Origin: Bacteroidales bacterium
GTDB taxonomy: Bacteria; Bacteroidota; Bacteroidia; Bacteroidales; F082
Assembly (NCBI GenBank): GCA_017530365.1
Contig: JAFXMK010000013.1
Location: 1-63,211, forward strand
Length of the DNA: 63,211 nt
Reading direction: 5' to 3'
Positions 4,106-27,281 of this stretch are shown here, one piece after another. The notes beneath the pieces were generated by a model. The model was not told the origin of the DNA. It ran no database searches and saw only the letters and a program-made list of their open reading frames with translations. The position numbers and the translations under genes were made by a program. The first letter of the stretch is position 1; each line of letters begins with the position of its first letter.

Positions 4106-5860
4106 TCAGCTCACCACCGCCAAATAATCCACCACGATGGGAATCACATTTGCACTACGCACTTCGATCAGCTTACGAAGACGTTCAACAAGCATTGGAA
4201 CATCCTCGCGATCGCGCACGAAGTCGTTTTTCAGTTGGATGGTGACATGCTGTTTAGCCATGCCGTTTTCCTGACGTTCAATCACGCTGATCACATCGAG
4301 CAAGGCATCAGCGATGCCGTTCTGGGCAAAATAACGGTAACAGAAGGCTTTCAGGTCGGCGCGTGTCACGATGCGATCGTTGGTACGGGCATAGTACTTG
4401 GCCAGCATATTCTTCTCATCCTTGTCAACCACTTCGTCACGGCCGCCGAAGGTCTTGAACAGCATTCGGGTTTCCTTTTTGTCGAAAGACTTCGGCCCCG
4501 ACACATCACTAAAGATATCTATGTCGTTGGCATAAGCGCCATCGGTGAACAAGCCTGTAAGGTGAATCGGAGTAGGATTGCCATCGCCTTTTCCATGTTT
4601 CAAAATGGCATACACTCCGCTCCGCGGCTCTTTGTTGTTCAGGATCACTCCGAACACATCCTTCAGAACGATGTCGAGTCTGCGGATCTTGTCAGTGTTC
4701 TGCATCTTGTGCACTTTCTGGAACGCATAGAAATCGGATTCATAACGTTTGCTCAGCTCGTCGGCAAGTTGCACCAAAGCATTGAGGTTGAACCGCTCAC
4801 AGCCGAACCTGCGAATGCTGAACCGATCCAGATCGTCGATTGATGAATCGGGATTCATGACCAGATTCAGGAAGAAGTCCTCATGGTTGTTATCATCGTA
4901 CGAGGAGCGGACTCCTTTGACGGCATCTGTATCCTCGTCGCTGTAGTCCGTTTCATTGGTTAGTTTGAGAATGGGCTCGTTACTAGAGAGCTGGAAGTCC
5001 TTTTTCATGACATTGACTGCCGGGAAGCAGTTGAACATCAGGTTTTCGGTTTCGAAGTTGAACGGTTTGGACATTCCTGAGAACTCGAACACGAAGTTGA
5101 TCATATCTGAGTCGAGCGGACGACGGAAGGTGGGTGCCACCATATAATAGTTCACGTTCATTTGTGCCCACAAATCATGCCACTTGCTTTCACCGCCAAA
5201 GAGCATCGACTTGTTGAACACGATGTTGGCATCATTGAACCAAGCCATCTTGGGGAAGCGGTCGAACTCCCAGGGACGGATCAGTGGCAGCTTCTCGTTG
5301 TTCCAATAGACGTTCACGTCGCTATAGCGCAAACCGGTGACCAAAAAGCCAAAGTTCGAGAGATCGGCCTTCTGGTCAGCCACGTCGATGTTGACATTCC
5401 ATTTGTCGCTGGCAATCTTCGTGATACCATTCACAGTCATTCCGATAATCTTTGTCCTGAACAAAGGATGGAACGGGAACATCTCCTTGACACGTAGCGA
5501 TTCCTTCTTGACCAGGAAGGCGGTGGAGTCGTCGCAATACACGTCACCTGGCTCTTCGGAATTCTTGGCGGTTTGGATGAGAGTCATGGCGGGCATGGCC
5601 TGGGTGATATGGTATGGCAAGATGCTGTTTTGGAAATCACTCACCACATTCCTTTCCAGATTCTGGATATCGTTTTTCAAACCGTTGGTTTGATACACGA
5701 AGGCAGTAATCAAAATACGGAGCAAGGGATCCTTCTCGAAGCCATAGAAAGGCGAATTGGGGTTGTTGCCGTCCCACTTGCCCTCTCGTTTCCAAGTCTC
5801 CAGGACTTTTTGCATCAGGCTGTCCACCTGCACCTGAATATCATATTCTTCTTGTGTCAT
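4106..5860 (-). CDS. tssF: Type VI secretion baseplate subunit TssF
   Basis: A 584-residue cytoplasmic protein matching TssF/VasA. It has the N-terminal segment with FYGFEKDPLLRILITAFVY, a long beta-rich middle part, and the family signature NCFPAVN at residues 277-283. TssF forms, with TssG, TssE and TssK, the baseplate on which the contractile sheath is built. It is the last tss gene of the 27-kb minus-strand run and follows tssE by 15 nt. Length is in the usual TssF range. The assignment rests on the motif and on linkage to tssE, tssK and tssG. Confidence 0.88.
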   Translation of the reverse strand: MTQEEYDIQVQVDSLMQKVLETWKREGKWDGNNPNSPFYGFEKDPLLRILITAFVYQTNGLKNDIQNLERNVVSDFQNSILPYHITQAMPAMTLIQTAKNSEEPGDVYCDDSTAFLVKKESLRVKEMFPFHPLFRTKIIGMTVNGITKIASDKWNVNIDVADQKADLSNFGFLVTGLRYSDVNVYWNNEKLPLIRPWEFDRFPKMAWFNDANIVFNKSMLFGGESKWHDLWAQMNVNYYMVAPTFRRPLDSDMINFVFEFSGMSKPFNFETENLMFNCFPAVNVMKKDFQLSSNEPILKLTNETDYSDEDTDAVKGVRSSYDDNNHEDFFLNLVMNPDSSIDDLDRFSIRRFGCERFNLNALVQLADELSKRYESDFYAFQKVHKMQNTDKIRRLDIVLKDVFGVILNNKEPRSGVYAILKHGKGDGNPTPIHLTGLFTDGAYANDIDIFSDVSGPKSFDKKETRMLFKTFGGRDEVVDKDEKNMLAKYYARTNDRIVTRADLKAFCYRYFAQNGIADALLDVISVIERQENGMAKQHVTIQLKNDFVRDREDVPMLVERLRKLIEVRSANVIPIVVDYLAVVS

Positions 5861-5875: not shown

Positions 5876-6355
5876 TTACCAAACATCAATATTGAACTCG
5901 TTATAATAAATCGTATTGGCAGCATTGTTGATCTTCCCAGTCACGATGATATGGATGATGTTGCCGTTTTTCTGGAAGTCCATGGACACTTGCACATCGC
6001 GCAGGCGCCGTTCATAACGTTCGATAGACTTTTTCAATTCGCGGGCAAACGTGTCGGCGTTCTTGCTGGTACCGACGAGTCTTTTGTCATACAGGGAATT
6101 GCGAATTTCCGCCAGTTCGGTGTTCTCGGACTTGTCAAGTGTGACGCTCTTACGTTGGAGGAACTCGGCCCGATCGAGGCTGAACCCTTCGAAACGGAAG
6201 TCCTCCAGACAGAATCCAAATTCCTCGTCGGCGATGCTGTCGTATTTGTTGGAGGCGATCAGCAGCCGCAGGAAAGCATCGATAGAAGCCTTTATTTGGC
6301 TGTCATCGAGATTCACGATGGGATAACGCAGTTGCAATGGGTTTCTGATGAACAT
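5876..6355 (-). CDS. tssE: Type VI secretion baseplate subunit TssE (GPW/gp25 family)
   Basis: A 159-residue gp25-like baseplate wedge protein. The C-terminal half carries the gp25 hallmark, an amphipathic helix followed by YERRLRDVQVSMDF near residue 115, then a beta hairpin ending YYNEFNIDVW. TssE initiates sheath polymerisation at the baseplate. It sits 18 nt after tssK and 15 nt before tssF, as expected for a baseplate sub-operon. Confidence 0.85.
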   Translation of the reverse strand: MFIRNPLQLRYPIVNLDDSQIKASIDAFLRLLIASNKYDSIADEEFGFCLEDFRFEGFSLDRAEFLQRKSVTLDKSENTELAEIRNSLYDKRLVGTSKNADTFARELKKSIERYERRLRDVQVSMDFQKNGNIIHIIVTGKINNAANTIYYNEFNIDVW

Positions 6356-6373: not shown

Positions 6374-7255
6374 TTAAATCATCGGCATCCACTCCTCCGG
6401 CTCGGGTTCCGGCTCGGGTTCGGGTTCTTTGGTCACCACTACCTTGGGCTGCAAGTCGTTCATGGCTACAGCAATATCTTCCAAAAACTGCTGGAATGCA
6501 TTCAAGTAAAGCTCCACGTCCATCAGGTTGGGAGTTGGCAACTCCACTTTGTGTTTCATGACCGAATAGCTCAAGGCGGTGGCAATGCGTTTACAGAGCA
6601 GCACCAGATCGCGTGAGGAGTCATCGGCTGAGAAACTCACCAGCTGATCGATAAGCAACATCACCAGCACGGGATCCTCCATGAACTCGGCGTTCTCGTG
6701 TTTGACGATTTTGTCGGCAGACTGTTTCAACGCGTCGAGTTTCTCAAGGAGCGGCACGGAAGTACGAACCGTCATGACCGGAGGCACGTAGGACTCATAC
6801 GCCGTCCAGGTCTCGTTGTTGCGGATCAGCTTAAGCAGCGGCTGTTGGGTCCTGATATCGGAGAGCGCCTTGAAGTCGAACATATATTCATTGACAACAT
6901 GGGGAACGCCATCTTTCTCAAATGTAACCAGATGGTCGCCCACCTCCAGCGTGAGGTAGAGCTCCGTGGTCTCCTTGTCGGGGATGTCCAGCGTGAAAGG
7001 CATCTTGGTCTCCACTACGGCGACCTGTCCCGTAGGAAGCAGCACATCGCAAATGATTTGTTTGATGAGGAGGCTGGCACCATTCAGCTCATAGCTGATG
7101 GAAAACTTCGTCCTGGGAATGATCCCGAACGACTTGGCGGCAATCATCTTGCGCACCAGCAAGCGGTTCTCGGAGATGTTGTTCTCCATATCGATAAAGG
7201 TCTGGGGCGTGATCTCCATGCCCGAACGCCAGTCGATTCTGATATCTGTATTCAT
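6374..7255 (-). CDS. tssK: Type VI secretion baseplate subunit TssK (short T6SSiii form)
   Basis: A 293-residue protein whose N-terminus (IDWRSGMEITPQTF) matches the TssK opening I-W-x-x-G-M-x-L-x-P-Q, followed by beta strands including LYLTLEV and a helical domain around residues 170-260. TssK links the baseplate to the envelope complex. It is shorter than the ~440-residue proteobacterial TssK, and its last ~20 residues are an acidic proline-glutamate repeat (EPEPEPEPEPEE) encoded by a near-perfect hexanucleotide repeat. The neighbours tssG and tssE support the call. The altered C-terminus, the part that contacts the membrane complex in classical systems, fits the absence of TssJ/L/M here. 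Confidence 0.75.
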   Translation of the reverse strand: MNTDIRIDWRSGMEITPQTFIDMENNISENRLLVRKMIAAKSFGIIPRTKFSISYELNGASLLIKQIICDVLLPTGQVAVVETKMPFTLDIPDKETTELYLTLEVGDHLVTFEKDGVPHVVNEYMFDFKALSDIRTQQPLLKLIRNNETWTAYESYVPPVMTVRTSVPLLEKLDALKQSADKIVKHENAEFMEDPVLVMLLIDQLVSFSADDSSRDLVLLCKRIATALSYSVMKHKVELPTPNLMDVELYLNAFQQFLEDIAVAMNDLQPKVVVTKEPEPEPEPEPEEWMPMI

Positions 7256-7282: not shown

Positions 7283-8056
7283 TTAAAAATGGGTGTTATA
7301 GTCAAGCACCAAAGGCCGTTCATCGGAATGCACAAAAGGCTGCTGATAATCCTTGACCTTGTAAAGGCAATCCATCTCCATGGGGACGAACCACTCCTGG
7401 ACAAAGCCGAACAACGGTTTGAGCAACTCCTTGAAAGCAGCGTATTCACTACTGCTAAGGTTGTGTTTGTGAACAGTGAATATCACCTTGTCCTGTTGGG
7501 GCATTTTATAGTCCACGGGACAGCCGATAACGGCCGAAAGCATCGTCGCCAGCCGGTCGAAGTCGAAACGAAGCTCGGTCACTTGCAGCAACATCGGCGC
7601 AAGCAGACGGATGTAGGGGTTTTTCTCGGCGTGAAGGTCATAGTCGAACAACAGCTTCAGCAACATCTCTGTCTTGTCGTCCACCATCCTATTGACATTC
7701 ATGCGGACATTCAGAGAACGGTTGAAGAAGAAAGAGTCGAACGGCAGGAAATACTTCTGGATATTCCGTTCCTCCTCATAGAGTTCGGCAACCCGTTGAG
7801 CGAAGGCACGGCTTTCCTTGTTCCTGAGCTCATTGGGGTCGAAAAACATCTTTTCCGGCAACACGTCGTATATGCCGTTCCTCGCCAACGAGACCTTCTT
7901 CATCTCTCGGTCCACCGACTTCAAATCACCCGAATAATTCCGAGTGAAGAAACTGCCGTAATTGACCGCCCAATCCTTGACATCAGGATAGAAGGCCGAA
8001 AGCAACATTTCCGCCGAGAGCTCTTGTTGAAGGATGTCTTGATCAAAATAGGACAT
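7283..8056 (-). CDS. tssG: Type VI secretion baseplate subunit TssG
   Basis: A 257-residue protein assigned to the TssG/VasB family by its size, the FNRSLNVRMNVNRMVDD region, the C-terminal strand LVLDYNTHF and its place between the E1-like gene and tssK in a baseplate cluster. TssG forms the wedge with TssF. It begins 9 nt after the end of the E1-like gene, which ties the ubiquitin-like cassette to the baseplate genes. Sequence similarity recognisable by eye is limited, so context carries part of the weight. Confidence 0.68.
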   Translation of the reverse strand: MSYFDQDILQQELSAEMLLSAFYPDVKDWAVNYGSFFTRNYSGDLKSVDREMKKVSLARNGIYDVLPEKMFFDPNELRNKESRAFAQRVAELYEEERNIQKYFLPFDSFFFNRSLNVRMNVNRMVDDKTEMLLKLLFDYDLHAEKNPYIRLLAPMLLQVTELRFDFDRLATMLSAVIGCPVDYKMPQQDKVIFTVHKHNLSSSEYAAFKELLKPLFGFVQEWFVPMEMDCLYKVKDYQQPFVHSDERPLVLDYNTHF

Positions 8057-8065: not shown

Positions 8066-9274
8066 TTATTTTACAATGATGGGATAGCGTTCCTCATCGC
8101 CACTGAGTTCAACATGAAACACTCCTTTTTCAGTGGTAATCTCTATCACATCATAATAAGGGATACCTATTTCACGAAGCGTCAACCGCTGATATGGGAA
8201 TCCCTTGTCAATGTTCTCAAATGCATTTTGGTTCAGGTCAGACCTGGACCTTGTATAAAGATCATAATTGTTATCAATGTAATCCGAAATCTTCGACTCG
8301 GGAAGCATGGGCGTAAAGCGCTGATTGTCGTTTTTCGATACGATGATATCCACGAACTTGTCGTTGCGGAGATTGATTTCCACATCTTCTACCCCCAGGG
8401 TCTCCTGAATAAGTGTGAAAGCATCGTTGACGCGGGTGTCGGCGCTCAGCGACGGCATCTTGACGATGTCGTTCCAGCACTCATGCGACGGACAGTCGTC
8501 GAAGAAAGCGACAGAGTCATAGACAGAGACGTGGTTATGCATGCCTTCGTAATGGAACCATTTGCCAAGCAACGTGGAGAACACCCCTGACTGCACTTCG
8601 TCTTTATGGATCAACTTCATGGCTTCCTGCACTTCCACCGCTCCGATGATGGAAGCGATGACTGGCGTAGTGGGAATCCTACCCTGCTTCTCATTGCGAT
8701 GTGCAACGCCAGCGCACGAGAGTTGCTGGAAGATGTTCTGCTTGGCATTCTCAGTCAAGCCGCATTCGTAGCAGTTCTCCCCCTGTTTGAAGATACGAAC
8801 GTTACCCGTGAGGTTCTCCATGCCGCCTTCCACCCATGGCACATTGGCACGCATGCAAAGCCTGTTGAGCTGCAATCGGGCCAGACGGCTGTCGAGGCAT
8901 CCTATCACCACATCCATCTTGCGGTACAAGCCCAAACCGACATCCGTATTGAGCTTGCCGCAGATACACTGCACATTGATGTTGGGGTTGATTTCCCTTG
9001 CCTTTCTGCATGCCACCTCTGCTTTGAAATAGCCTTTGTCGGCGTCTTCCTCACGGAAGAGCACAGAACGGGTCAGGTTCGAGTATTCAATGGTGTCAAA
9101 ATCGACAATGTAAATGTTACCAACGCCAAACAAGGCAAGGTTTTTAATCACCTCGTTGCCCAAAGCGCCTGCACCTACCACAAGTACTTTGGCGTTCTTG
9201 ACGACGTCCATCTTGTACCATGACAGCAGGTCGAAGACCTCCTTACCCCATTCCTTGATTTCCAGTTCTTCCAT
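8066..9274 (-). CDS. E1-like ubiquitin-activating enzyme (ThiF/MoeB/UBA family) of the T6SS-linked Ubl cassette
   Basis: A 402-residue protein with a full ThiF/E1 adenylation domain (residues ~15-245). It has the nucleotide-binding GAGALG (34-39), acidic residues D58 and D60, the NLTR arginine (R69), K84 and the magnesium-site region GCLDS (D128). A CxxC pair (C168, C171) and a second CPSHEC pair (C261, C266) can form the structural zinc site of E1/MoeB proteins. C187 in LSCAG, 15 residues before the conserved TTPVIASIIGAVEVQEA helix, is the candidate thioester cysteine. The last ~130 residues form an extra domain ending in strands around LTLREIGIPYYDVIEI, possibly a beta-grasp fold like the E1 ubiquitin-fold domain that docks E2 (inference). 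Expected role: adenylate the Gly-ending Ubl (17120-17434) and pass it to the E2. A MoeB/ThiF biosynthetic role is unlikely, since no thiamin or molybdopterin genes are nearby. Confidence 0.93.
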   Translation of the reverse strand: MEELEIKEWGKEVFDLLSWYKMDVVKNAKVLVVGAGALGNEVIKNLALFGVGNIYIVDFDTIEYSNLTRSVLFREEDADKGYFKAEVACRKAREINPNINVQCICGKLNTDVGLGLYRKMDVVIGCLDSRLARLQLNRLCMRANVPWVEGGMENLTGNVRIFKQGENCYECGLTENAKQNIFQQLSCAGVAHRNEKQGRIPTTPVIASIIGAVEVQEAMKLIHKDEVQSGVFSTLLGKWFHYEGMHNHVSVYDSVAFFDDCPSHECWNDIVKMPSLSADTRVNDAFTLIQETLGVEDVEINLRNDKFVDIIVSKNDNQRFTPMLPESKISDYIDNNYDLYTRSRSDLNQNAFENIDKGFPYQRLTLREIGIPYYDVIEITTEKGVFHVELSGDEERYPIIVK

Positions 9275-9283
9275 AGCGAAGTC

Positions 9284-10591
9284 TTATTTTAGATTGTAAA
9301 CCAGTCCAAGTTCCACACTCGGTATAATGGCCTTTCCTCCTTGGCTGAGCACGGCGGCGTGTGTACCTGGGATGAAATCCTCAGAGGTGGCTGCTTCACC
9401 CAAAGCGGTGAGCGGGATGTCAAGCTTCAGGCCAGCGTTGAAGGCAATGGGGGAATTCTTGAACGGAACGCAAGCACCGAGTGCCACATTGCCCCAAAGC
9501 ACGAACGACTTCAATGCAGGCTCGTAGCCATCATAACAAGGCAGGTTCTCACCATAGCCTAGCTCACTGACATCATCCAAGGTGACATCCCATTGCTGGT
9601 AATAACCCTCCAAGTCGTATTTTCCCTCGCCTGTAAATGACGAAGCTATCTTCAGCGACGGCGTCAGGCCAAGCTTGGCATACACCACTACCCTGTCCTT
9701 GAGCGGTTGTCCGAAGCATAACCGCACCGGTATGTCGAGGTAAGTCAGCGTGAGACGTTCCGAAAGATCACGGAAAGTATAGATGGCTTGTGAGGCATCA
9801 CCGTCGGCATCGACGACCTTCATCGTCATGGACGACTCGGCCAGTCCTGCCGACATGTTGAAGTTACGAATGCCCACACCGGCTTCCACCGAGAGCGGGA
9901 ACGACTCCGTCAGGTTAGCCGTACCGAAATACACATCAAACATCTTGGCCCAATTCACATCTTTTGCCCAAGGCTCGGGAGCGTTTTTGCCGATGAAGGC
10001 AGGTCCCATGCCCACCTCGAGGCCGATGACCGGACTCGCCGGAGGCCTGGCGATACCCTTTAGGATTTTGACCTCCTGGTTCAGCTGGTCGATCTTCACA
10101 TTGCAAGCCGCTACCACTCCGTCCATCTCATTCAAAGCCCTTTCCTTGTCGGCTAGCGTAGCCTTATAACGGGCAATCTCTGCAGTGTCCACATTCGCTC
10201 CTATCCTCAGTTGGTCAATCTCTAAGTTCAAATCCGTAATATCCTTGTTCAAGTCACTGATTTGTTTCCGCATGGCTTTTGACTCCTTCTCAAAATCAGT
10301 CACTTTCTTGCGGAGTCGCTTCAACTCATCATTGTCGGAAGCGTCACCCAACCGCTTGACCTCCTTGTTGGCATCATCCAACTCAGCCTTGAGTTGCTTC
10401 ACTCTAGCTTGCAGTTCATCTAAGCCCTCGTAGCTGATCGACTGGATCACATCTTCGACGTTACCCTTGTAATATTCGATTTTGACTCGCTTTCCGTCCT
10501 TGGTCTTGCCACGAATCGTGGAAAGCTGCGTCTGGGCATACGTGGTCGCCGCCATCGCTATCATCAAGAATAAGAACAATAGTTTTTTCAT
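9284..10591 (-). CDS. Outer-membrane beta-barrel protein with N-terminal periplasmic coiled coil
   Basis: A 435-residue exported protein. A signal peptide ends at TTYAQ (about residue 20). A long heptad-patterned coiled coil follows at residues ~55-175, rich in Leu, Lys, Glu and Asp. The C-terminal ~250 residues read as alternating amphipathic strands typical of PorT/OmpA-type Bacteroidetes barrels, ending in the barrel-like strand SVELGLVYNLK. The coiled coil would reach into the periplasm from an outer-membrane barrel. It is 9 nt upstream of the E1 gene and 15 nt downstream of the RING-protein gene. A T6SS without TssJ/L/M needs another outer-membrane exit or anchor, and this is the best candidate in the locus; that role is inference. 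Confidence 0.72.
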   Translation of the reverse strand: MKKLLFLFLMIAMAATTYAQTQLSTIRGKTKDGKRVKIEYYKGNVEDVIQSISYEGLDELQARVKQLKAELDDANKEVKRLGDASDNDELKRLRKKVTDFEKESKAMRKQISDLNKDITDLNLEIDQLRIGANVDTAEIARYKATLADKERALNEMDGVVAACNVKIDQLNQEVKILKGIARPPASPVIGLEVGMGPAFIGKNAPEPWAKDVNWAKMFDVYFGTANLTESFPLSVEAGVGIRNFNMSAGLAESSMTMKVVDADGDASQAIYTFRDLSERLTLTYLDIPVRLCFGQPLKDRVVVYAKLGLTPSLKIASSFTGEGKYDLEGYYQQWDVTLDDVSELGYGENLPCYDGYEPALKSFVLWGNVALGACVPFKNSPIAFNAGLKLDIPLTALGEAATSEDFIPGTHAAVLSQGGKAIIPSVELGLVYNLK

Positions 10592-10606
10592 ATCAATAGC
10601 TTTTGA

Positions 10607-12958
10607 TTACTTATCTTTCTCAATATAGGTAAACTTCGTATTGCCGATAGTGAAGCAGCTACCATGCGACAACAGGATGGAGTCGCCTTCTTTCAGCACA
10701 CGTTGTTCGTTACCATAAGTAGTTCCATCCGTCAAAGCATGGCAATACGGATGGTCGTTGTCGATATAAAGCTCAACCTGCTTGTCATGGATCTGATCGC
10801 TGGGATCCCAGCTCATTTGGATAACACAGTTGGGAGAGCTGCCGATGGTGACATGGTTGGATCCGCCAGCTACGTTCATCCACTTGTAAATGGCAATGTC
10901 GCGCTCCTTGGTCGGGCCTTCGATATGCAGGTAATAGTTCTCGGAGGTGTAATGCACCACGGCGATGGAAGCGCCCAGACCGGCAGCATAGATCATAAAG
11001 GCCAACACACCCACGACAGGCAGCGAAGACCCTAATCCGTAAACGACAACAAAGCTCAACACCGCTGAAATCAACCCGCCAAGGAAGGCTTCCTTGAACT
11101 CAATATCCGATTTCTTGGCAAGCAACCATGTGATGCTAATGCCGAAGAACAGCCACGGCACCCAGTCGATCCACCAGCAATTGCTAGGTTTTCCAAGTGC
11201 GATGATCACAATGGCACCGAGAAGGAAGGCAATGCAACCGATGATGGCATTGCCAACGGACCTGGCTAAGATAACCAACATGTTCTTCCATGTCTTCTTG
11301 CGGAACTCGATCAGATAACTAAAGAGGAAGGTGATGACAAATCCCATGATCAAGCCACACATCAACAAAGGAACGATCTTCTGGACATATTGCATCTCCA
11401 CAAGAGGAGCATTCTCGCCTTCAAACAAACCGACAATCCATTTTACCAAGTCCCAGAAAAAGCGGAAACCACGTATCAGCTTGAATAGTAGCCACGAAAT
11501 GAGGCCACCTGCCAAGCCATACAGCAGCCAAGAAGTGAAATATGGCGAATTGCGTTCATCAAACAGGTGTTTCTTGTTGTAGAAATAGATGCCGTCCTTA
11601 CAGCTGTTCAATCCATATTCCGGACAGCGGTCATGGTTCTCCTCCCAGCATTCCCAGTGGACGGTATGCTTGCACTTGGTGACAATCAAGTCGCCTTCCT
11701 GGAAATTGTCCTTGCAGTAATAGCACTGTTGCAGCACCACCTCTTCGCCGTCGTCCTTGACATCGGACGGTTTGAACTTCTTGACATACTTCATCCGGAA
11801 CCACTTGTATTGCAGCCATGGCACCAAAAGTTGCATGATGAGATAAGTCAGGATGATGACACCCAAGCCGATCAAAAAGCCGATCAGCATCGAGACATAC
11901 CTACCCTTTTTAGAAGGCTGTTCAGTGGGTGAAAGCACAAAAGGCCTAAGGGCAGATCCGATGGAATAGCTCTTTTCACCATGTGCCTTGGCCTTGTTGA
12001 TGTCCAGGCAAAGGGTCAAAGGTTGTCCATTGTAGGTCGTCTTCTCCTCCACCGAGTAATACATACGGTAGTCCATGGCGATGGAGTCGATGGCACCCAG
12101 CAACACATACTTCAGGGAATCCACTGAATACTGAGGATAGAAACGTCCTTCAGGAGTACGATGGCACATGAACTTGAACTCATTCTCCATGTCCTGGTCC
12201 AGCTCATCGCCAAAATACACACAATAAATGGCTTTCAAATGCTCAGGAATCTCAAGGTAGTCGGGGTTGTTGAACAGCAGTTTGTCACGGAAGAAATCCT
12301 CATCCTCATCCTGCTCCACCTTGCCCGAAAGGATAAACAGCATCTTGTCGGACAGCGTGTCGGAGCTCAGTTCCTTGTTGTGCATGATGTCAGGATAGAA
12401 ACAATCCTCTTCATCCAAGTTGGCGATTTCCTGAATCTTTGAGATGATGGAAGCATAGATGGACTTCTCTTCTTCTGACTTCTCTGCCATCTCGTCACGG
12501 CGGACGTAAGAGCGGATGCTCTCACCTGGATAGACTCGCTCCGTCTCGGTGACATCGGAACCCATCATGGTGATATAGACCTTGACGTATTCAGGCAGCG
12601 CGTCAACAAAGGTAACGATGGCTTCCTTCACCTTCATGTAATCTTCCTCGCTCAGCATTACGCCTTGGTCGGCAAGGATGACGATGGTCAAGTTGTTGGA
12701 AACCAACTTGCGGCTGGAAATGTCAACGAGGCTGTCGATATGCAGCTTAATGGTATCGGAATTGTCCAACTCATAACAACGGCCGTCAGTGGGTTTCAGA
12801 CCGTAAAATGGAACTTTCTTGCCGTCACGCATCAGCTTGAAATCGATAAAACGGCCCGTCCTTCTCCATTCAATCGAGCCAAATTCAATGTCCACTTGGG
12901 CTACGGCCGGCAAGATAAGACATGCGATAAAAAACAATAATAATGCTATTCGTTTCAT
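10607..12958 (-). CDS. Polytopic membrane protein with vWA-like periplasmic domain, RING-H2-like finger and C-terminal FHA domain (candidate E3)
   Basis: 783 residues from the chosen start (MKRIAL); a start 33 nt earlier would overlap the JAMM gene. Numbering below is from that earlier start. Order: signal peptide ending PAVAQ (~32); periplasmic region with a vWA-like core (strand LTIVILADQG at 101-110, MIDAS-type residues missing); first membrane span ~366-390; a cytosolic zinc finger C423-x2-C426, C440-x-H442-x2-H445-x2-C448, C456-x7-C464; about six further spans between 486 and 680; and a C-terminal FHA-type domain (~685-794) with VTIGSS and a GNTKFTYI end strand. The first six ligands match RING-H2; the last pair is spaced unusually widely. 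Beside E1, E2, Ubl and JAMM genes, a role as membrane-bound ubiquitin-ligase-like E3 is the natural reading. FHA would add recognition of phosphothreonine. It may also stand in for TssN/TssR. It could instead be a structural zinc protein without ligase activity. Confidence 0.85.
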   Translation of the reverse strand: MKRIALLLFFIACLILPAVAQVDIEFGSIEWRRTGRFIDFKLMRDGKKVPFYGLKPTDGRCYELDNSDTIKLHIDSLVDISSRKLVSNNLTIVILADQGVMLSEEDYMKVKEAIVTFVDALPEYVKVYITMMGSDVTETERVYPGESIRSYVRRDEMAEKSEEEKSIYASIISKIQEIANLDEEDCFYPDIMHNKELSSDTLSDKMLFILSGKVEQDEDEDFFRDKLLFNNPDYLEIPEHLKAIYCVYFGDELDQDMENEFKFMCHRTPEGRFYPQYSVDSLKYVLLGAIDSIAMDYRMYYSVEEKTTYNGQPLTLCLDINKAKAHGEKSYSIGSALRPFVLSPTEQPSKKGRYVSMLIGFLIGLGVIILTYLIMQLLVPWLQYKWFRMKYVKKFKPSDVKDDGEEVVLQQCYYCKDNFQEGDLIVTKCKHTVHWECWEENHDRCPEYGLNSCKDGIYFYNKKHLFDERNSPYFTSWLLYGLAGGLISWLLFKLIRGFRFFWDLVKWIVGLFEGENAPLVEMQYVQKIVPLLMCGLIMGFVITFLFSYLIEFRKKTWKNMLVILARSVGNAIIGCIAFLLGAIVIIALGKPSNCWWIDWVPWLFFGISITWLLAKKSDIEFKEAFLGGLISAVLSFVVVYGLGSSLPVVGVLAFMIYAAGLGASIAVVHYTSENYYLHIEGPTKERDIAIYKWMNVAGGSNHVTIGSSPNCVIQMSWDPSDQIHDKQVELYIDNDHPYCHALTDGTTYGNEQRVLKEGDSILLSHGSCFTIGNTKFTYIEKDK

Positions 12959-12966
12959 AACTATAC

Positions 12967-14550
12967 TTATACTCTCTTTCTTCGAATCCATTCTTTCATT
13001 TGTGTCAACGAGGTGTTGCCAACCGGTGACATAGAACCTTGCTCATTTCTGATCCATACCTGAAGCTGGTCGTCGGCAATACATTGCACCAAAAAACGGC
13101 ATCCCGTCAATTCACTTGCGTACTTTGCCAAAGACGTTGCATCCAGATCGCCATCGTTGACAAGGCACGCCAATTTCTCTTCGTTATCGTATGGCAGGCA
13201 GCAACCAACCTGAATGTAGCCGCCCTGCTCCTCACCAAACAGATAGCCTGCAACGCCCTTTGAATTGGAATACAAGGCATTTTCGATCTGGTTGATGGCA
13301 TGGGCGGCAAAGCCCAGATGATGCACGCCTTCATCGTTCAACAGCATGGTGAAACAATCAGGGTCTTCCTTGAACTCTTCCAACAGGTTTGGTCTCGGAC
13401 CGGCATTACGGTTTTGTTCGCGGCTTTGGCGATAAATCTCCTCGAAGGAGAACCATTGCTTCACTTCCTCCTGGTTGTTCATCTTGCCATCAGTCTTAGG
13501 CGTGAAGAATCCCAGCTTGAAATCAGGGGTGTTGGTGTCGATCACAAGCGCCAGCAATCTTTTGCGGTGATCGGAATAGGCCAGTTGCTGCTGGACGATG
13601 AGGTCTTGGTGGGACAAAAACAAGCCCAAGCCAGGATGTGAGTGCATCCAGCATGTCAGCACATAGTCGCGTTTCGACTTCTGGCCAAGGGTGTCGATCA
13701 CCGATGCCATGTTGATGCCAATCTTCTTGCCGAAGTTGAGGCTGTATTCCCCAAAATCGGCATCGTCGCCCGGCTCCACCATATACTCAAGACTGATGTC
13801 ATAGTGACCCTTGTTTCCTTTCACTTGATCCCAACATCCCAAGATGAAGCATCCCGTTTCGTTGGTACGTCCACCCTCTTCCAAGGAACCGTTGAAAAAG
13901 TCATACAGCTTCTTGACAAGGTCGGTATTGAGATACACCTTGTCAATGGCAGTATCTTCAAATACTTGATTCATGTCAAACGCCAAGTACTCTTTTTCAC
14001 GCCTAAGCACATGTTCCAAGCCTTTGTCATAAACCACCGACTCGTCAGTGATCATGGAAAGCACATTCGGACCCTTTTGTTCTTTCGGGCTCTCGACGGG
14101 TCTCTTTCTCCGTTTCAGGAAGAAGAACACCCCAACCAGCAAGAGCAGCAGCACCAAGCCGATAATGAGCCAGATGTTGACACCCGACCCGTTTTTCGAA
14201 GCAGGTTCTGGCTTCGCGGTTTGTTGTTGGGTCGTCATCTCCACTTTGATGGTGATGGGCTCGCCGTCGAACTGTCCCGACAGCGTCACGTTATCCTCCA
14301 TGTTCAAGCCTACCGGCTTCAGATAATATGGCTCCGGACTTGACATGAAAACACAGGTCTCACGCCCACCCCATTCGATGCATTCACGGATGGCGTCGTT
14401 GGTGATGGAAGCCTTTTCCAGCTCCAGGTGTCCCGAAGGAACGACGACCTTAAGACTTTTGCCGTCGTATGTCATCGTGGGCACCTGTCCCATCGCCATG
14501 GTGGAAAGGAACAAGATGACGGCACAAATCCATCTTATGTTGTGTTTCAT
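12967..14550 (-). CDS. Inner-membrane-anchored JAMM/MPN metallopeptidase (deubiquitinase-like)
   Basis: 527 residues from MKHN; a start 9 nt earlier overlaps the previous gene (numbering below is from it). It has a signal peptide ending MAMGQ (~25), a ~95-residue periplasmic beta domain, a span at 129-148 (LIIGLVLLLLLVGVFFF) followed by basic stop-transfer residues, then a cytosolic JAB1/MPN domain. All JAMM zinc ligands are present: E234 in the ETGCFILG strand, and the motif H306-S-H308-P...S316-x2-D319. The last ~135 residues contain a strand pattern like a second MPN fold (GVAGYLFGEEQGG) but no ligands. Expected role: cleave isopeptide bonds between the cassette's Ubl and its targets at the membrane. 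Since the Ubl already ends in Gly, precursor processing seems unnecessary. The neighbour is the RING protein, 8 nt downstream. Confidence 0.92.
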   Translation of the reverse strand: MKHNIRWICAVILFLSTMAMGQVPTMTYDGKSLKVVVPSGHLELEKASITNDAIRECIEWGGRETCVFMSSPEPYYLKPVGLNMEDNVTLSGQFDGEPITIKVEMTTQQQTAKPEPASKNGSGVNIWLIIGLVLLLLLVGVFFFLKRRKRPVESPKEQKGPNVLSMITDESVVYDKGLEHVLRREKEYLAFDMNQVFEDTAIDKVYLNTDLVKKLYDFFNGSLEEGGRTNETGCFILGCWDQVKGNKGHYDISLEYMVEPGDDADFGEYSLNFGKKIGINMASVIDTLGQKSKRDYVLTCWMHSHPGLGLFLSHQDLIVQQQLAYSDHRKRLLALVIDTNTPDFKLGFFTPKTDGKMNNQEEVKQWFSFEEIYRQSREQNRNAGPRPNLLEEFKEDPDCFTMLLNDEGVHHLGFAAHAINQIENALYSNSKGVAGYLFGEEQGGYIQVGCCLPYDNEEKLACLVNDGDLDATSLAKYASELTGCRFLVQCIADDQLQVWIRNEQGSMSPVGNTSLTQMKEWIRRKRV

Positions 14551-14555
14551 AGTGA

Positions 14556-15332
14556 TCATATTGACGGAATGTCTTCTTCTTTGTCTTTCTTTGGTTTCTT
14601 TTCCTTCTTCGGCTTCATCGCTTTAGCGGCTTTGACCTTGGAGCTGATCATGGTGATGATAAGTACTACAGCGGCAACGATACCTACGATCTCAAGGATC
14701 AAGGTAATGTCGATGGGGCTCTTAATCACCTCCATGATGGAAATCCTGGTATAGGTCTCCTTGACCGACCTCCAAAGCTTTGAAAGGTCTTCGTTATCTT
14801 CGATGAAATCACGGTTTGCGCCGTATTCCACCGTTGCCTCCTCCACATAGCAGTCCTCAGCCAGCTTTTTGACGATACGGAGCGAGTCGATACGTTTGTT
14901 GGCAACATAACGGCTACCTTCAGCCTCCAGCTCTGCAAGCCGGTCTAGATACCGGTTCAGCTTCACCGTCAGCTTTTCGACACGCTCCTGATTGGCTTGT
15001 TCTTCCCTCAACTCCTCGATGCGTTTGCCAATCTGTTGGTGTAAATCCGTGTAATTCTCGTAGATGGCGAACAACTTCTTGTCGTAACGGATGATCTCGC
15101 TATAGTCGGCATAGCACGACTCTACCAGCTTGATATGGTTTTTGTAGCGGTTTTCCAGACGCTCGGCATCCTCGGCAGTCTCAATCTGTTTGTCGAGTTT
15201 CACCAGCTCCTTGTAATAGGAATCCAGCTCCTCCTTGACCAAGTCCGTCAGCTCATCTTGAGCGAAGAATCTCGCAGGCAGGAAAAGTGCCAGCAGCGCA
15301 ACCAGAAAATATCTACAGAAAGCTTTTTTCAT
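14556..15332 (-). CDS. Single-span membrane protein with periplasmic coiled coil, Ubl/T6SS cassette
   Basis: 258 residues. A signal peptide ends ARFFAQ (~25). Residues ~30-190 are almost entirely helical and rich in Glu, Lys, Leu and Arg, a likely coiled coil in the periplasm. One membrane span (LEIVGIVAAVVLIITMI) lies near residues 216-232, followed by a very basic and acidic cytosolic tail with KPKKEKKPKKDKEE. No family was recognised. It is 6 nt from the periplasmic-protein gene and 5 nt from the JAMM gene. The lysine-rich tail faces the cytosol, where the E1, E2 and RING would act, so it is a conceivable Ubl acceptor (inference). Topologically it could replace TssO or TssL-type envelope parts. 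Confidence 0.7.
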   Translation of the reverse strand: MKKAFCRYFLVALLALFLPARFFAQDELTDLVKEELDSYYKELVKLDKQIETAEDAERLENRYKNHIKLVESCYADYSEIIRYDKKLFAIYENYTDLHQQIGKRIEELREEQANQERVEKLTVKLNRYLDRLAELEAEGSRYVANKRIDSLRIVKKLAEDCYVEEATVEYGANRDFIEDNEDLSKLWRSVKETYTRISIMEVIKSPIDITLILEIVGIVAAVVLIITMISSKVKAAKAMKPKKEKKPKKDKEEDIPSI

Positions 15333-15338
15333 CGGGTA

Positions 15339-16472
15339 TTATTTGACGAGTTTCTTTACAAATTCGTAATTCTTCAGAAGCTTTTGGTCCAGTTTGCCAC
15401 GGCATCCTGACGGCAGGTTGTTCAGTTTGTCGTCGAACTTCTTCACTACAGCATCAAAAGCAGCCTTTTTCTCTGCTTTGGCAGCGGCACTGCCAGCCAG
15501 TGACCAGTCGTTGACAAGGTTGTTCAGGTTACTGGTAGTGGTTTTGATCTCGTTGTTCAGAGTTTTTACATCGCAATCACTATTATTGATTGGTGGTGGA
15601 GGTGGCGTGCCTTTATCTATTTGGTCAATGATATCCTGCAAATTCCTGAAGCTGTTTTGGACTTCTTCGCAGTCAGCGTCCCTGAAACGAGAGGTCTCTA
15701 TGACAGCATACTCCCTCATGATGAAGTCTCTATAAGCTTTCTGGTTACTAGGATTACGCTTCAGTTCGTTCACTTTGTCAAGTGCTACTTGGAAGAGTGC
15801 TTCATACTCCTGGATGGTTTGGATCATCTGCTCGGCATCTTTGCAACGCTCGAGTTTGATGTTGATCTCCACATCCCTGCCCATAAAGCCAAGGATGCCT
15901 TTTCTGCCACTACGATCCAAGGCGATGGGGTTGCGAAGCTTCAGCACTATACGACTGACACCTTTGAACACTTTGAATTTCAGATCCAGTTCCATCTCGC
16001 CATCCAAAGGAACCATTTGGTGATCCAGCTGTCTCTTCACCCTCCTGGGCGACTTAAGGTCATACACGCCAGTGAATGACATACCTGTGCATTGGATGGA
16101 GGCGTTTACCTTTTTCTCGGCCAAGTTCAGGAAGTTCTCCTGATCAATAAAGCTGTTGGATCTGACCATCTTGACACCACGGTCCTTCATATAAGAGCCC
16201 AGGTCATCATACGGAATGTCGTGCTGAGGCAGCCAAATCTTGTCGTATTGCGGCTTCTCGTAGGAGCTTCCCATACGAACCAACAGCGTCTCTGAATCCT
16301 GGTCGAACTCGAACTTCATGCTCATGACAGCCGCGGGGATACGGTCGTTATAGCCAGGAATGGTCACCTTAAGGTCGGTTGTTTCACCAGTGACCACAGT
16401 AACATCGAATTGGGCGAAAAGCATCGCCGGTGCAAATAGCACTAAAAGCAGGAAAAATGATATTCTTTTCAT
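15339..16472 (-). CDS. Periplasmic protein of unknown function, Ubl/T6SS cassette
   Basis: 377 residues, with a signal peptide ending AMLFAQ (~21). The first ~200 mature residues look beta-rich. A helical stretch follows (residues ~210-285), then a PPPPP linker near 292, and a basic helical C-terminal part with two cysteines that could pair. No transmembrane segment follows the signal peptide, so it is probably periplasmic or attached to the barrel or vWA domains. No family was recognised. It lies between the E2 gene (6 nt) and the coiled-coil membrane gene (6 nt), so it almost certainly works with the cassette. Confidence 0.65.
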   Translation of the reverse strand: MKRISFFLLLVLFAPAMLFAQFDVTVVTGETTDLKVTIPGYNDRIPAAVMSMKFEFDQDSETLLVRMGSSYEKPQYDKIWLPQHDIPYDDLGSYMKDRGVKMVRSNSFIDQENFLNLAEKKVNASIQCTGMSFTGVYDLKSPRRVKRQLDHQMVPLDGEMELDLKFKVFKGVSRIVLKLRNPIALDRSGRKGILGFMGRDVEINIKLERCKDAEQMIQTIQEYEALFQVALDKVNELKRNPSNQKAYRDFIMREYAVIETSRFRDADCEEVQNSFRNLQDIIDQIDKGTPPPPPINNSDCDVKTLNNEIKTTTSNLNNLVNDWSLAGSAAAKAEKKAAFDAVVKKFDDKLNNLPSGCRGKLDQKLLKNYEFVKKLVK

Positions 16473-16478
16473 AGCAGT

Positions 16479-17096
16479 TTAATTTTCGTTTCTAAGTTTT
16501 TCAATCCAGCCGTTCGGTTCGGCTTGTTCCAAAACCCATTCAGCCACCTTGTTATCCTCTGGGAATGGAGGCGTGTTCTGGGCATGATATTTCTCGTATT
16601 TGAGGTATAACATCACACGGTCAACATACCAGGCAAGATCGGTAAAGGTACCACAGGCGGGCGTGTTGAGACATACCCTGCCGGCGAAATCACCGAAGAA
16701 GCGGATATTGGGATGCCAGGGATGAGGGATCTCCTTTCCCTGTTCATCGCGGGTGATGAATTTGAACTCCAGCTTGCTATCGACAGCCGGATAGTTGTTC
16801 GGGATGGTTATATGCATCCTGAACGTGTCGGCACAGACGGGCAAGCACAGTCCGTTGGCATCAGGTTCCTGCACGTTGCAGAAGGATTTTACCTTGAAGA
16901 CAATCTCATACTGGATGGGAAGGTTGTCAGGGTTCCGTTTCCTGATGATGTAGGTGATGTCAGGGTCGTCCTTGAAACGCTGATCGATGGCCGACCATTC
17001 GTGCATCAGGCGGCGGTTCCGTCCCACATAACGGTTTTGCTTGTATTGATCGATCTCTCTGGGTTGATTGACTTCGTACATCGGTTCCATATCCAT
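16479..17096 (-). CDS. E2-like ubiquitin-conjugating enzyme (UBC fold)
   Basis: A 205-residue protein with a clear UBC fold. It has the strand-turn NNYP (residues 100-103), the HPN triad H128-P129-N130 followed by I131, and the catalytic cysteine C142 in GRVCLN. The downstream TDLAWYVDRVMLYL helix with W156 corresponds to the canonical tryptophan-helix after the active site in eukaryotic E2s. The HPN-to-Cys spacing is a few residues longer than in UbcH5-type enzymes because of an insert (RFFGDFAG). About 60 residues precede the first E2 strand. No signal peptide or span is present, so it is cytosolic. It should take the Ubl from the E1 (8066-9274) and work with the membrane RING protein. The Ubl gene is 23 nt upstream. 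Confidence in the fold is high; the substrate is unknown. Confidence 0.93.
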   Translation of the reverse strand: MDMEPMYEVNQPREIDQYKQNRYVGRNRRLMHEWSAIDQRFKDDPDITYIIRKRNPDNLPIQYEIVFKVKSFCNVQEPDANGLCLPVCADTFRMHITIPNNYPAVDSKLEFKFITRDEQGKEIPHPWHPNIRFFGDFAGRVCLNTPACGTFTDLAWYVDRVMLYLKYEKYHAQNTPPFPEDNKVAEWVLEQAEPNGWIEKLRNEN

Positions 17097-17119
17097 GTTG
17101 TGTTAGCTATTATACAGGA

Positions 17120-17434
17120 TCATCCCGCAATGGGATCAGAGATCACTTCGAGGGTGTCTCCGGGTTTGACGTTGTAATCGAGCAAGGTCTTCTTGGTCTT
17201 TCCGACCTTGGGCTGCAAAATGATGTCGCGTCCCGTCACCTCGTCTTTCTTACCGAAGAAATACTCCGTGGGGACGTAGTCGATCATCTCGGGAAGGTCG
17301 AAGATACGGGTACCCGTGTTGTCAACGGCCTTACGCAAGTTGTTCATCAGCACTTCGAGATCCGTGTTGGGATCAGTGATCTTGAATTTGATCGTCTTGT
17401 TTTTGTACCTTAAAAATAAAAAGAAATCTTCCAT
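17120..17434 (-). CDS. Ubiquitin-like protein ending in glycine
   Basis: A 104-residue beta-grasp protein. The C-terminal segment LLDYNVKPGDTLEVISDPIAG aligns without gaps to the end of ubiquitin, sharing L-x-DYN-[IV] and the TL of the last strand, and the chain stops at Gly104. The N-terminal hairpin has KTIKFKI at a place equivalent to the ubiquitin beta-2 strand. An insert of ~20 residues (around residues 45-70) makes it longer than ubiquitin. The free C-terminal Gly is what an E1 adenylates, and no processing tail is present. It is 23 nt from the E2 gene. Only one Gly (AG rather than GG) is seen. A TGS or YukD-type non-conjugated domain is the alternative, but E1, E2, JAMM and RING in the same operon argue for conjugation. 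Confidence 0.87.
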   Translation of the reverse strand: MEDFFLFLRYKNKTIKFKITDPNTDLEVLMNNLRKAVDNTGTRIFDLPEMIDYVPTEYFFGKKDEVTGRDIILQPKVGKTKKTLLDYNVKPGDTLEVISDPIAG

Positions 17435-17470: not shown

Positions 17471-18547
17471 TCATTGAACTACTAGTTTTTGCACGGTATG
17501 GTTGCCACTTGCATCACTGAAATGGCAGAAATACAATCCTTGTGGCAGACGGATGCTGAGTTCGTTCATTCCACTACCCACCTGCTGGCTATACAAGAGC
17601 TTGCCCTCCAAGCCAAAGATGCTCAGCATCGCCTCCTGTTCGCTTTCGTTGTTGACAGTCACGACTTCAGAAATCGATGACGGGTTTGGATAGATGGAGA
17701 ACATCTCCTTGCTGTTGCGAACCGCATAGACAGCGCTGAAGGCGCCGCAGAACAATTGGCCTTGTGCGTCGGCGTTGAACGATAGATAGACCTGGTATTC
17801 ACCATCGGCAAGGCCTTCTTTAGGATAGTAATACTGTCCGTTGGCACCGGCGATCTTCTGACCGTCCTTGTACCATTGGTATCTGTAAGTGTCTTTTGGA
17901 TTCGGATATATCAAGATATAATCCTTCCCGTTGTGTTTCTTGGCCACGATGGTATTCAAATCGGAAGGATTGATAAAGCTCGTCACTCTGATGGTAACAA
18001 TGTTGCTCAGCACCCTACTCGATCCGTTGGAGGCCCAATAGCAAAGCTTCCAACCGTCATACGAGACTTCCAACGGCTGACCGGTATAGGGAATTGCCAT
18101 CTGGAAGAATGTATCGGAACACAACAGCCAGCCTTGTTCGGACGCATTCTGCACATGAGGAGGAGTCAGCGACAGCGACTCCCCAGCACAGATGGCGGCA
18201 GGTGCAACGATGTCACCGACAATCACTGGAAGATCATCCACAAAGGAAGCGGTCACTATCACATCGAAATCAGGCATCACAAAATGGTCATCAACGAGTT
18301 CAACAGTCTCTTCTGGAACCTGAATATTATATACCGTAATGGACTCCAATACATAGTTCGGATCCGGAACAGCTGACACCCTCACTCTGGTTCCCGTCTG
18401 GACTTCCCCTGTCGGTCTGACGTTCAAGGTGCCATGCACAATGTCAGGATCGACCTCAACGAAGTGCCAGTAGAGTGTATCATTGCTTTGTGCCATCACC
18501 GCGATGGAGCCAAGCAGGAGAAGGACAAATGCAAATATTTTTTTCAT
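17471..18547 (-). CDS. Secreted protein with T9SS type A sorting domain, inside the T6SS run
   Basis: 358 residues with a signal peptide ending AVMAQ (~20). Residues ~25-105 resemble an InlB-B-type repeat region (GTLNVRPTGEVQTGTRVRVSAVPDPNY is its typical turn-strand pattern). The C-terminal ~75 residues are a type IX secretion sorting domain, with FSIYPNPSS, a hydrophobic strand with LSIFGLEGKLLYSQ and LPQGLYFCHF. It would be exported by T9SS and fixed at the surface. It sits on the same strand between the Ubl gene (36 nt) and a small unknown gene (12 nt). Why a T9SS cargo is found here is unclear; it may be a surface component of the same machine or an unrelated insertion. Confidence 0.85.
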   Translation of the reverse strand: MKKIFAFVLLLLGSIAVMAQSNDTLYWHFVEVDPDIVHGTLNVRPTGEVQTGTRVRVSAVPDPNYVLESITVYNIQVPEETVELVDDHFVMPDFDVIVTASFVDDLPVIVGDIVAPAAICAGESLSLTPPHVQNASEQGWLLCSDTFFQMAIPYTGQPLEVSYDGWKLCYWASNGSSRVLSNIVTIRVTSFINPSDLNTIVAKKHNGKDYILIYPNPKDTYRYQWYKDGQKIAGANGQYYYPKEGLADGEYQVYLSFNADAQGQLFCGAFSAVYAVRNSKEMFSIYPNPSSISEVVTVNNESEQEAMLSIFGLEGKLLYSQQVGSGMNELSIRLPQGLYFCHFSDASGNHTVQKLVVQ

Positions 18548-23881: not shown

Positions 23882-23892
23882 GGCTGATCCTA

Positions 23893-26217: not shown

Positions 26218-26253
26218 GTCCTATAAATATAATGTTAGGTAAAATCAAACTCA

Positions 26254-26769: not shown

Positions 26770-26829
26770 AATTCTTAATTTTAAGATAGGCGGCGGAGCG
26801 CACTCCGCCGCCCATGTTGTACAATAGGG

Positions 26830-27222
26830 TTACGCCCAGTCGTTGGTGTAGGTCACCGGGCCGTTCTTGATCTCACGGCAGGAGATCACGATCTCCTCGT
26901 AGTGACCCAACTTGTCTTCCCACATCTCCACGAAGTTGATGCAGTAGCCATCCGTGAACTCAATCTTCTTCATCAGATTGCCTGACTTGGTCTCATTGAA
27001 TTCAATGGCGCCGTTCTTGGCGAGGTTCGGGGCAATCATCCAGTCCAACAGGTCCGGATTGCCGTCGTTCAAAGCTTTCACACGGAGAGTGATCTGGCCA
27101 CCTCTCGGAATGCCAGACATCTGTCCCTCGGTATCGACAGCTTGGTTAAAGGAATAAGTGACCATCATGACCTCGCGCTCGGTGAGGCCGTCAACTTTCA
27201 ATGTTACAGGTGTTTTTGCCAT
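26830..27222 (-). CDS. tssD: Hcp-family tube protein TssD (main copy)
   Basis: 130 residues, the standard length for Bacteroidetes TssD. It has a start strand PVTLKVDGLTEREVMMVTYSF, the GIPRGGQITLRVK turn, and the end segment EEIVISCREIKNGPVTYTNDW. Hexamers stack to form the inner tube propelled by the TssB/TssC sheath. No signal peptide, as expected for Hcp. It lies 59 nt downstream of tssC, with a short tandem-repeat spacer between, and upstream of the second tssD. Confidence 0.92.
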   Translation of the reverse strand: MAKTPVTLKVDGLTEREVMMVTYSFNQAVDTEGQMSGIPRGGQITLRVKALNDGNPDLLDWMIAPNLAKNGAIEFNETKSGNLMKKIEFTDGYCINFVEMWEDKLGHYEEIVISCREIKNGPVTYTNDWA

Positions 27223-27281
27223 TTTAATTTGTTATTTAAGGGTTAATAATAGTTTGCAGTTTGCAGTTTATAGTTTTCAGT

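Follow-up and report, generated by a model that had tools for sequence, protein, structure and literature searches.

A ubiquitin-like conjugation cassette is among the core genes of a distinct type VI secretion lineage in Bacteroidales

We examined a 63,211-nucleotide (nt) contig of a Bacteroidales bacterium (JAFXMK010000013.1, assembly GCA_017530365.1), the whole of which is called the window here. Within a type VI secretion system (T6SS) locus it carries genes for a ubiquitin-like protein (Ubl), an E2 and an E1 enzyme, a JAMM peptidase and a membrane protein with a RING-like domain. Comparison with related loci gives good support to the view that Ubl, E2, E1 and RING, together with two envelope proteins labelled CC258 and DUF377, belong to the core gene set of a separate T6SS lineage of Bacteroidales, one in which the JAMM peptidase is optional. 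The bacteria of this lineage are gut and rumen dwellers.

All cassette and T6SS genes of the window lie on the minus strand and run from 31684 down to 4106 (Table 1). The order begins with ClpV, TssB, TssC, two Hcp, VgrG, a PAAR-like protein, four accessory genes and a Por_Secre_tail protein, and continues with Ubl, E2, DUF377, CC258, JAMM, RING, OMPcc, E1, TssG, TssK, TssE and TssF. The sheath, tube, ClpV, VgrG and baseplate genes are of the Bacteroidota type (T6SSiii). In a Pfam scan of 29 window proteins, located between 38 and 33659, TssC matched PF17541 (E 3.6e-103) and both Hcp proteins PF17642, while TssB reached PF05591 only at E 0.032 and was assigned from position and homologues. By their coordinates, Ubl and E2 are 23 nt apart, E2 and DUF377 as well as DUF377 and CC258 6 nt, RING and OMPcc 15 nt, and OMPcc and E1 9 nt; CC258 and JAMM overlap by 4 nt, and JAMM and RING by 25 nt. 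A first-pass annotation, made from the window's letters, had described the Ubl, E2, E1, JAMM and RING genes and placed the cassette 9 nt from tssG. Their coordinates, single strand and catalytic residues were all confirmed, the spacing between E1 and tssG is indeed 9 nt, and the guess that the cassette serves the T6SS machine is supported by what follows. The interval also encodes three envelope proteins unnamed in that annotation, DUF377, CC258 and OMPcc; the two Cys of DUF377 are each conserved in 84/87 relatives. We infer membrane topology from signal peptides and transmembrane (TM) helices recognised by a hydropathy scan and by eye.

Table 1. Features of the window locus and, in the last rows, modules and fusions in related loci (G, genome; C, contig; L, locus; numbering of our own; aa, amino acids).
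Feature	Coordinates	Strand	Details
Ubl, mature C-terminal Gly	17120..17434	-	104 aa, ends ...DPIAG
E2	16479..17096	-	H128-P129-N130, C142; family profile matches E2-25K/UBE2K in PDB, E 1e-4
DUF377	15339..16472	-	signal-like N-terminus, probably periplasmic; conserved Cys 210 and 268
CC258	14556..15332	-	signal-like N-terminus, coiled coil, TM ~202-220, Lys-rich tail, last residues P-S-I
JAMM peptidase	12967..14559	-	signal-like N-terminus, TM ~129-147, JAMM domain after TM
RING protein	10607..12991	-	N-terminal vWA, TM, RING-like domain 421-464, more TM helices, C-terminal FHA-fold domain
OMPcc, optional	9284..10591	-	signal-like N-terminus, coiled coil, outer-membrane-like C-terminal half (by sequence character)
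E1	8066..9274	-	single adenylation domain, Cys187, Cys/His pairs 168/171 and 261/264, C-terminal domain
TssG	7283..8056	-	family hhalign to TssN-type TssG 99.5%
TssK, tail P-M-I	6374..7255	-	TIGR03353 E 3e-6 (below cut-off); family hhalign 98.8%
TssE (gp25)	5876..6355	-	PF04965 E 1.7e-6; family hhalign 98.6%
TssF	4106..5860	-	position and likeness to TssF-like genes of other T6SS loci; no Pfam match
Por_Secre_tail protein, adjoins Ubl	17471..18547	-	family in 19/86 loci
PAAR-like (DUF4280), VgrG, Hcp x2, TssC, TssB, ClpV	22622..31684	-	Pfam
Second tandem module	L164 (G117:C51) 1446-14717		
Second tandem module	L165 (G148:C79)		
CC258-RING fusion	L054:5648-8977		
CC258-RING fusion	L067:11803-15072		
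CC258-RING fusion	L165:3982-7044		G148 second module

The residues on which conjugation would depend are conserved across relatives. Ubl is modelled as a beta-grasp fold with an exposed C-terminal Gly; in the alignment of relatives the last-Gly column is kept in 91/92 rows, and 89/92 proteins end exactly there. The catalytic Cys and HPN motif of E2 are kept in 90/90 relatives (the window protein matches PF00179 at E 0.0034, below the cut-off). The window E1 (402 aa) has one ThiF stretch (PF00899, E 5e-52), and Cys187, its putative thioester Cys, is kept in 84/85 relatives, the remaining row having a gap. Against PDB, the E1 profile matches UBA7 (E 2.5e-28), UBA2 (E 3.2e-27) and BubCD (9ea5, E 2.9e-10). 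Because the catalytic residues are invariant across related loci they are not there by chance, and the invariant active sites suggest that Ubl conjugation takes place. Separately, a tandem pair of Ubl genes was seen in G134 (L019:2114-3383), one of them with a long C-terminal extension and without the terminal Gly.

In the RING protein, the ligands C423-x2-C426, C440-x-H442, H445-x2-C448 and C456-x7-C464 are present in 89/89 relatives, and its profile matches ZNRF1 (E 0.0096). In the consensus, its FHA-like domain seems to be missing the residues that usually bind phospho-Thr. The zinc ligands of the JAMM peptidase (E234, H306-S-H308, S316 and D319) are kept in 26/26 proteins; the window protein gave no Pfam JAB match at E 1, and a related JAMM protein, of G164, matches PF01398.

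E2 matches occur in 6/149 genomes of the family, 6/393 of the order and 3/395 of the phylum, each count including the window's genome, and the GTDB contig collection holds 183 confirmed E2 relatives. We read 86 contexts, namely the best 80 of these 183, whose titles name Bacteroidales, groups within Bacteroidales, or Bacteroidia/Bacteroidetes, plus five genomes and the window; many loci end at contig ends or at the fetched flank, so the family counts are lower bounds. E2 and Ubl are present in 86, RING, DUF377, tssG and tssK in 83 each, E1 in 82, CC258 in 79, PAAR in 70, tssE and tssF in 69 each, JAMM in 22 and OMPcc in 19. At least one tss gene lies on the fetched stretch in 85/86 contexts, which bears out the earlier claim that the full conjugation cassette is tied to a T6SS; the remaining context (L045) has a short flank, carries JAMM and could not be assigned to either gene order below. 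In 85/85 cases the closest baseplate gene has the same orientation, at a median distance of 395 nt.

Two gene orders account for the other loci. In 23 loci, the window included, the order is Ubl, E2, DUF377, CC258, JAMM, RING, OMPcc, E1, tssG, K, E, F, with the baseplate genes downstream of E2 and JAMM present in 21/23. In the other 62, the order is E1, tssG, K, E, F, Ubl, E2, DUF377, CC258, RING, with the baseplate genes upstream and JAMM in 0/62; wherever CC258 and RING adjoin, JAMM is genuinely absent from its place. The peptidase, first described as a standing part of the cassette, is thus found in 22/86 loci and missing from 64/86. Since the Ubl gene, moreover, ends at the Gly, the core function seems to need neither processing nor removal. 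Within the loci themselves, most have no gene for dedicated Ubl removal.

The lineage is set apart from the TssN-type T6SSiii by its envelope part. TssC (PF17541) is present in 7/149 family genomes and 18/393 order genomes, and E2 accompanies it in 6/7 and 5/18. We compared 24 genomes, 23 with TssC plus G164, which has E2 without TssC (G419 was omitted, its TssC being a fragment at a contig end). RING occurs in 11/24, the same 11 as E2, and TssN (PF17555) in 7/24, with an overlap of 0; TssN was thus found in 0/11 RING/E2 genomes versus 7/13 others. Neither RING nor TssN was found in 6/24 (G089, G385, G393, G404, G416 and G476). TssO (PF17561), sought in the 24 genomes and six more, was over the cut-off in 8/24, plus Bacteroides mediterraneensis An793, and in 0/11 RING genomes. 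A sub-threshold TssO match in the CC258 gene of G106 (E 4.8e-4) was rejected as a chance match of coiled coil and TM helix, which hhalign does not support. The 29 scanned window proteins gave no Pfam match to TssP, TssQ or TssR. The locus had initially been classed as T6SSiii; as Pfam profiles detect neither TssN nor TssO in the genome of the window, we assign it to a separate lineage.

Profile comparison points the same way. TssK, TssG and TssE of both lineages, used as positive controls, align (hhalign 98.8, 99.5 and 98.6%), whereas CC258, DUF377, RING, JAMM, OMPcc and Ubl scored below 1% probability against TssN and TssO, and we therefore reject sequence kinship of the cassette envelope proteins with these two. 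The same six families scored below 1% against a second TssO-like protein (labelled TssP here; four rows), and two canonical envelope proteins, each represented by one row, gave nothing above 1%. The baseplate is therefore shared and the envelope part different. The described T6SSiii (TssNQOPR; PMC10781749) thus has in common with the window lineage the PF17541 sheath, the PF17642 tube and the TssK, TssG and TssE families, and differs in that the window lineage lacks TssN and TssO by profile and has Ubl, E2, E1, RING, CC258 and DUF377 as its core instead. The survey in that source used a main model that demanded one or more of the five genes TssN, O, P, Q and R, and a second model under which all five could be missing.

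Three features link the cassette to the baseplate more closely. The first is a C-terminal tail, P-x-[ILV], that ends TssK in 66/68 and CC258 in 76/79 complete proteins, the exceptions being two TssK (PMM), two CC258 fused to RING and one CC258 (SIEI). Among the 64 loci in which both proteins are complete, 60 have it on both. The other 23 of the 25 tabled families show it in no protein or in just one (0/69 TssF, 0/69 TssE, 0/82 TssG, 0/82 RING, 0/86 E2, 0/87 Ubl, 0/83 DUF377, 0/70 PAAR, 1/82 E1 and 1/12 ClpV), and TssK of T6SS without the cassette has it in 0/10 (six TssN-type, G089, G404, G393 and G476). The second feature is the fusion of CC258 and RING in a single reading frame with the tag inside, seen in L054 (1109 aa), L067 (1089 aa) and the second module of G148 (1020 aa). 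The third is the tandem arrangement of G117 and G148, where a second module with its own VgrG, PAAR, Ubl, CC258, RING and tssG, K, E and F lies just downstream; neither E1 nor E2 is in that stretch, and in either genome the E2 search gives a single match and the RING search two. Each baseplate set therefore has its own Ubl and RING, with one E1-E2 seemingly shared. The CC258 and TssK tags of the tandem modules end in Leu (PVL, PIL) rather than Ile.

From the shared tails, fusions and tandem modules we infer both the substrates and a docking role. We regard it as evenly poised between right and wrong that Ubl conjugation takes place at the interface of membrane and baseplate and serves to assemble the machine or to dock it. 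E1 would charge the terminal Gly of Ubl and hand Ubl to E2; the RING protein, a neighbour of CC258 in the inner membrane, would act as E3 or as a scaffold placing Ubl at this interface. The likeliest acceptor would be the Lys-rich tail of CC258; TssK, which has the same P-x-I tag, would most probably be its partner or a second acceptor. Such a modification may license or hold docking of the baseplate on an envelope complex of RING, CC258, DUF377 and, in some loci, OMPcc, a complex that would stand in for the TssN-based one. JAMM, where present, could remove Ubl again. In T6SSiii, TssN alone recruits TssK, through a cytoplasmic domain predicted to be ubiquitin-like (PMC10781749). In the boldest form of the model, free Ubl placed by E1-E2-RING on CC258 or TssK might replace this built-in domain; this fits such recruitment but is without sequence support, the idea of a replacement resting on context as there is no profile relation to TssN or TssO, and we consider it unlikely.

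Several points weigh against docking by Ubl conjugation, beginning with the missing profile relation just mentioned. The RING protein matches zf-RING_2 at E 0.00098, below the Pfam cut-off, and the C-x7-C spacing of its final ligand pair, in place of C-x2-C, is unusual. A tripeptide common to 2/25 families could reflect chance or convergence of tails; TssK of the divergent Ubl-type G532 and G194 is without it, and G134, whose TssK (among the 66) ends in PEI, has no recognised CC258. A Lys-rich stretch behind a TM helix is, moreover, expected from the positive-inside rule.

To these are added three genomes with a more distant cassette (E1, YukD-like Ubl, E2, JAMM and RING) and no tss genes in the stretches read, from which it follows that the chemistry is not bound to T6SS. 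The cassette of G164 (L156/L168) lies beside SrfB and a PF10139 (Virul_Fac) protein, and TssC, searched for in this one of the three genomes, was not found. That of G600 (L182/L183) lies beside an nSTAND protein, a PAAR protein and a 1766-aa protein with an extracellular contractile injection system (eCIS) core domain, and the neighbours in G694 (L184/L185), judged from their first residues, resemble those of G600. In a tree of E1, E2 and RING with 33 hand-picked T6SS rows, the T6SS members are split from these three cassettes with a Shimodaira-Hasegawa-like approximate likelihood-ratio (SH-aLRT) support of 100 (quick method). The first-pass annotation had named tss loci without the cassette and cassettes without T6SS as what would speak against its idea; both occur, the former among TssN-type loci and the latter in these three genomes, yet 85/86 close relatives have tss genes on the fetched stretch.

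The sheath tree also counts against a simple history. TssC trees, read without a root, took each distinct sequence once (37 and 38 rows), and long branches were flagged. A single clade of all Ubl-type T6SS was rejected (approximately unbiased test, p 1e-14), two changes being needed, which means that loss or exchange has interrupted the joint inheritance of cassette and sheath. The order in the cassette tree (G194; G134 with G532; G388 and kin; the rest) looks, by eye, the same among the Ubl-type TssC rows. Pairing with the Ubl-type G134/G532 in the TssC tree are G089 (L152) and G404 (L153), which have neither cassette nor TssN and in which Ser/Thr kinase-FHA proteins adjoin TssF; a single gain would fit if loss or exchange followed on the G089/G404 branch. 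The T6SS of these two is a possible third envelope or control type. We also observed an FHA/zinc-ribbon protein beside TssF in G089, and the T6SS of L154 (G393) and L155 (G476) on a branch of its own nested among the TssN-type rows of the TssC tree; profiles detected neither TssN nor TssO in these two.

The kinase-FHA proteins of G089/G404 bear on the strongest alternative, which we nonetheless think improbable: a regulatory switch in which Ubl attached to some part of the T6SS would start or stop firing once the RING protein's vWA domain has sensed an envelope signal, a job done in other T6SS by a kinase/FHA switch. The relation of these cassette- and TssN-free loci to G134/G532 is in its favour, as are the vWA and FHA-fold domains of the RING protein, and the JAMM of some loci would provide reversibility. 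However, JAMM is absent from 64/86 loci, the FHA-like consensus seems to be without the phospho-Thr-binding residues, and an own Ubl in each tandem module better suits a structural role.

We find it quite improbable that Ubl tags cargo, being placed on effectors, PAAR, VgrG or Hcp so as to load, keep inactive or release it. In loci of the window type, Ubl does follow a variable region between PAAR and the Por_Secre_tail gene, but in 62/86 loci, where the baseplate genes are upstream, Ubl-E2 follows tssF and lies away from PAAR, and among near relatives the cassette is stable while the region behind PAAR varies. Tail, sheath or cargo had been proposed at first as the target; the clues from TssK, CC258 and RING point to the membrane-baseplate interface instead. 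The accessory genes of the window in that region (18560-22599; 365, 637, 178 and 162 aa), which lie from PAAR to Por_Secre_tail, differ strongly among near relatives and have no Pfam match at E 0.1; they are a possible effector and immunity region.

Less probable still is a non-covalent role, with Ubl as a structural subunit or sulfur carrier and E1 and E2 serving other chemistry. Ubl does end in a single Gly (AG or PG), not GG, and beta-grasp domains act as scaffolds in TssN and EccD (PMC10781749), but an E2 Cys and HPN invariant in 90/90 relatives are hard to explain without thioester transfer. ThiS/MoaD-type systems are not known to have an E2, which weighs further against such a role. PADLOC models (E up to 0.01) gave no match for E2, JAMM, Ubl or RING, and E1 matched those named E1-E2 (E 2e-15), which we take to stand for the cyclic-oligonucleotide-based antiphage signalling system (CBASS). 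That the cassette is a stand-alone defence module (Bil/Bub/CBASS-like) sitting in the T6SS locus by accident is very unlikely. Bacterial operons of E1, E2, JAB and Ubl do include antiphage CBASS (PMC10097602) and Bil (PMC13373217), and the E1 match agrees with this, but tss genes accompany 85/86 loci in two gene orders, Ubl and RING are duplicated together with baseplate genes, PADLOC recognises none of the other four proteins, and E2 relatives are found in none of the plasmid, phage or viral collections. An origin from phage, plasmid or virus was likewise rejected, as no E2 relative was found there by tblastn with the window E2 or by a pattern scan (14 stretches, none confirmed).

Among known systems, Bub follows an E1, E2, Ubl and peptidase logic, and Bil resembles the cassette in uniting Ubl, E1, E2 and JAMM peptidase in one operon. 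The latter differs in that the window has one ThiF domain, a RING membrane protein, a T6SS context and an optional JAMM; Bil E1 has two adenylation domains (PMC11354881), and we reject membership on this ground. The likeness to Bub (PMC13373217; PDB 9ea5) lies in the BubCD match of the E1 profile given above; the window E1 is, however, closer to eukaryotic UBA7/UBA2, and a RING protein and T6SS genes are present. Of the Bil/Bub type first proposed, the Bil part therefore falls, given the single-domain E1, and the relation to Bub seen here is that of E1. Type II CBASS (Cap2/Cap3) shares E1, E2 and JAB chemistry, but Cap2 is a single polypeptide with both an E1 and an E2 domain, and its operons also encode a cGAS-like enzyme (PMC10097602), whereas the window E1 and E2 are separate and 0/29 scanned window proteins match a cGAS-like enzyme or CD-NTase; this membership, too, is rejected.

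The uncharacterised operons in row 6d of Iyer et al. 2006 bring together Ubl, JAB, E1-like and E2-like proteins, also in Bacteroides thetaiotaomicron (PMC1779556). Their E2-like protein is without the conserved His of classical E2s, in contrast to the invariant HPN of the window family, and the accessible text on these operons does not mention T6SS. The Caldiarchaeum subterraneum cascade likewise has Ubl, E1, E2, RING-H2 and a deubiquitinase in one operon (PMC11354881); in the window, by contrast, the RING lies inside a membrane protein with vWA and FHA-like domains that is part of a secretion machine. In the accessible parts of the open-licence PMC literature, including PMC3482391, PMC1779556, PMC4714493 and PMC10781749, we found no precedent for a Ubl cassette in a T6SS.

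Apart from the cassette, a BadF/BcrA-type ATPase gene (below the Pfam cut-off; 3252-4088) adjoins tssF in the window, and such a gene also follows the second tssF of G117 (L164). Of six isolates examined, five have one PF17541 TssC each, of the low-scoring Ubl-locus type (336-353 bits): Xylanibacter ruminicola D31d, Millionella massiliensis, Mediterranea massiliensis, Caecibacteroides pullorum and Prevotella sp. ne3005. The sixth, B. mediterraneensis An793, has two TssC, and its in vivo TssD expression (PMC11204068) was therefore rejected as proof that this T6SS is made. The one-TssC isolates make the system directly testable, and the common P-x-I tails name candidate substrates.

The association described here means that a pathway for Ubl conjugation belongs permanently to a secretion machine, an arrangement not known from these harpoon-like weapons that pierce adjacent cells; the accessible literature ties bacterial Ubl conjugation to phage defence or stress. 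All Bacteroidota T6SS have been said to hold a TssN-type membrane complex or part of it (PMC10781749, section 11), a claim that the Ubl lineage contradicts. If docking by Ubl conjugation is true, bacterial ubiquitin-like modification would be used to assemble a large machine, and there would be an additional answer to how the T6SS tail docks on the envelope. Should the bolder idea hold, that Ubl replaces the TssK-recruiting domain of TssN, the built-in docking domain of the TssN lineage would have a post-translationally added counterpart in the Ubl lineage.

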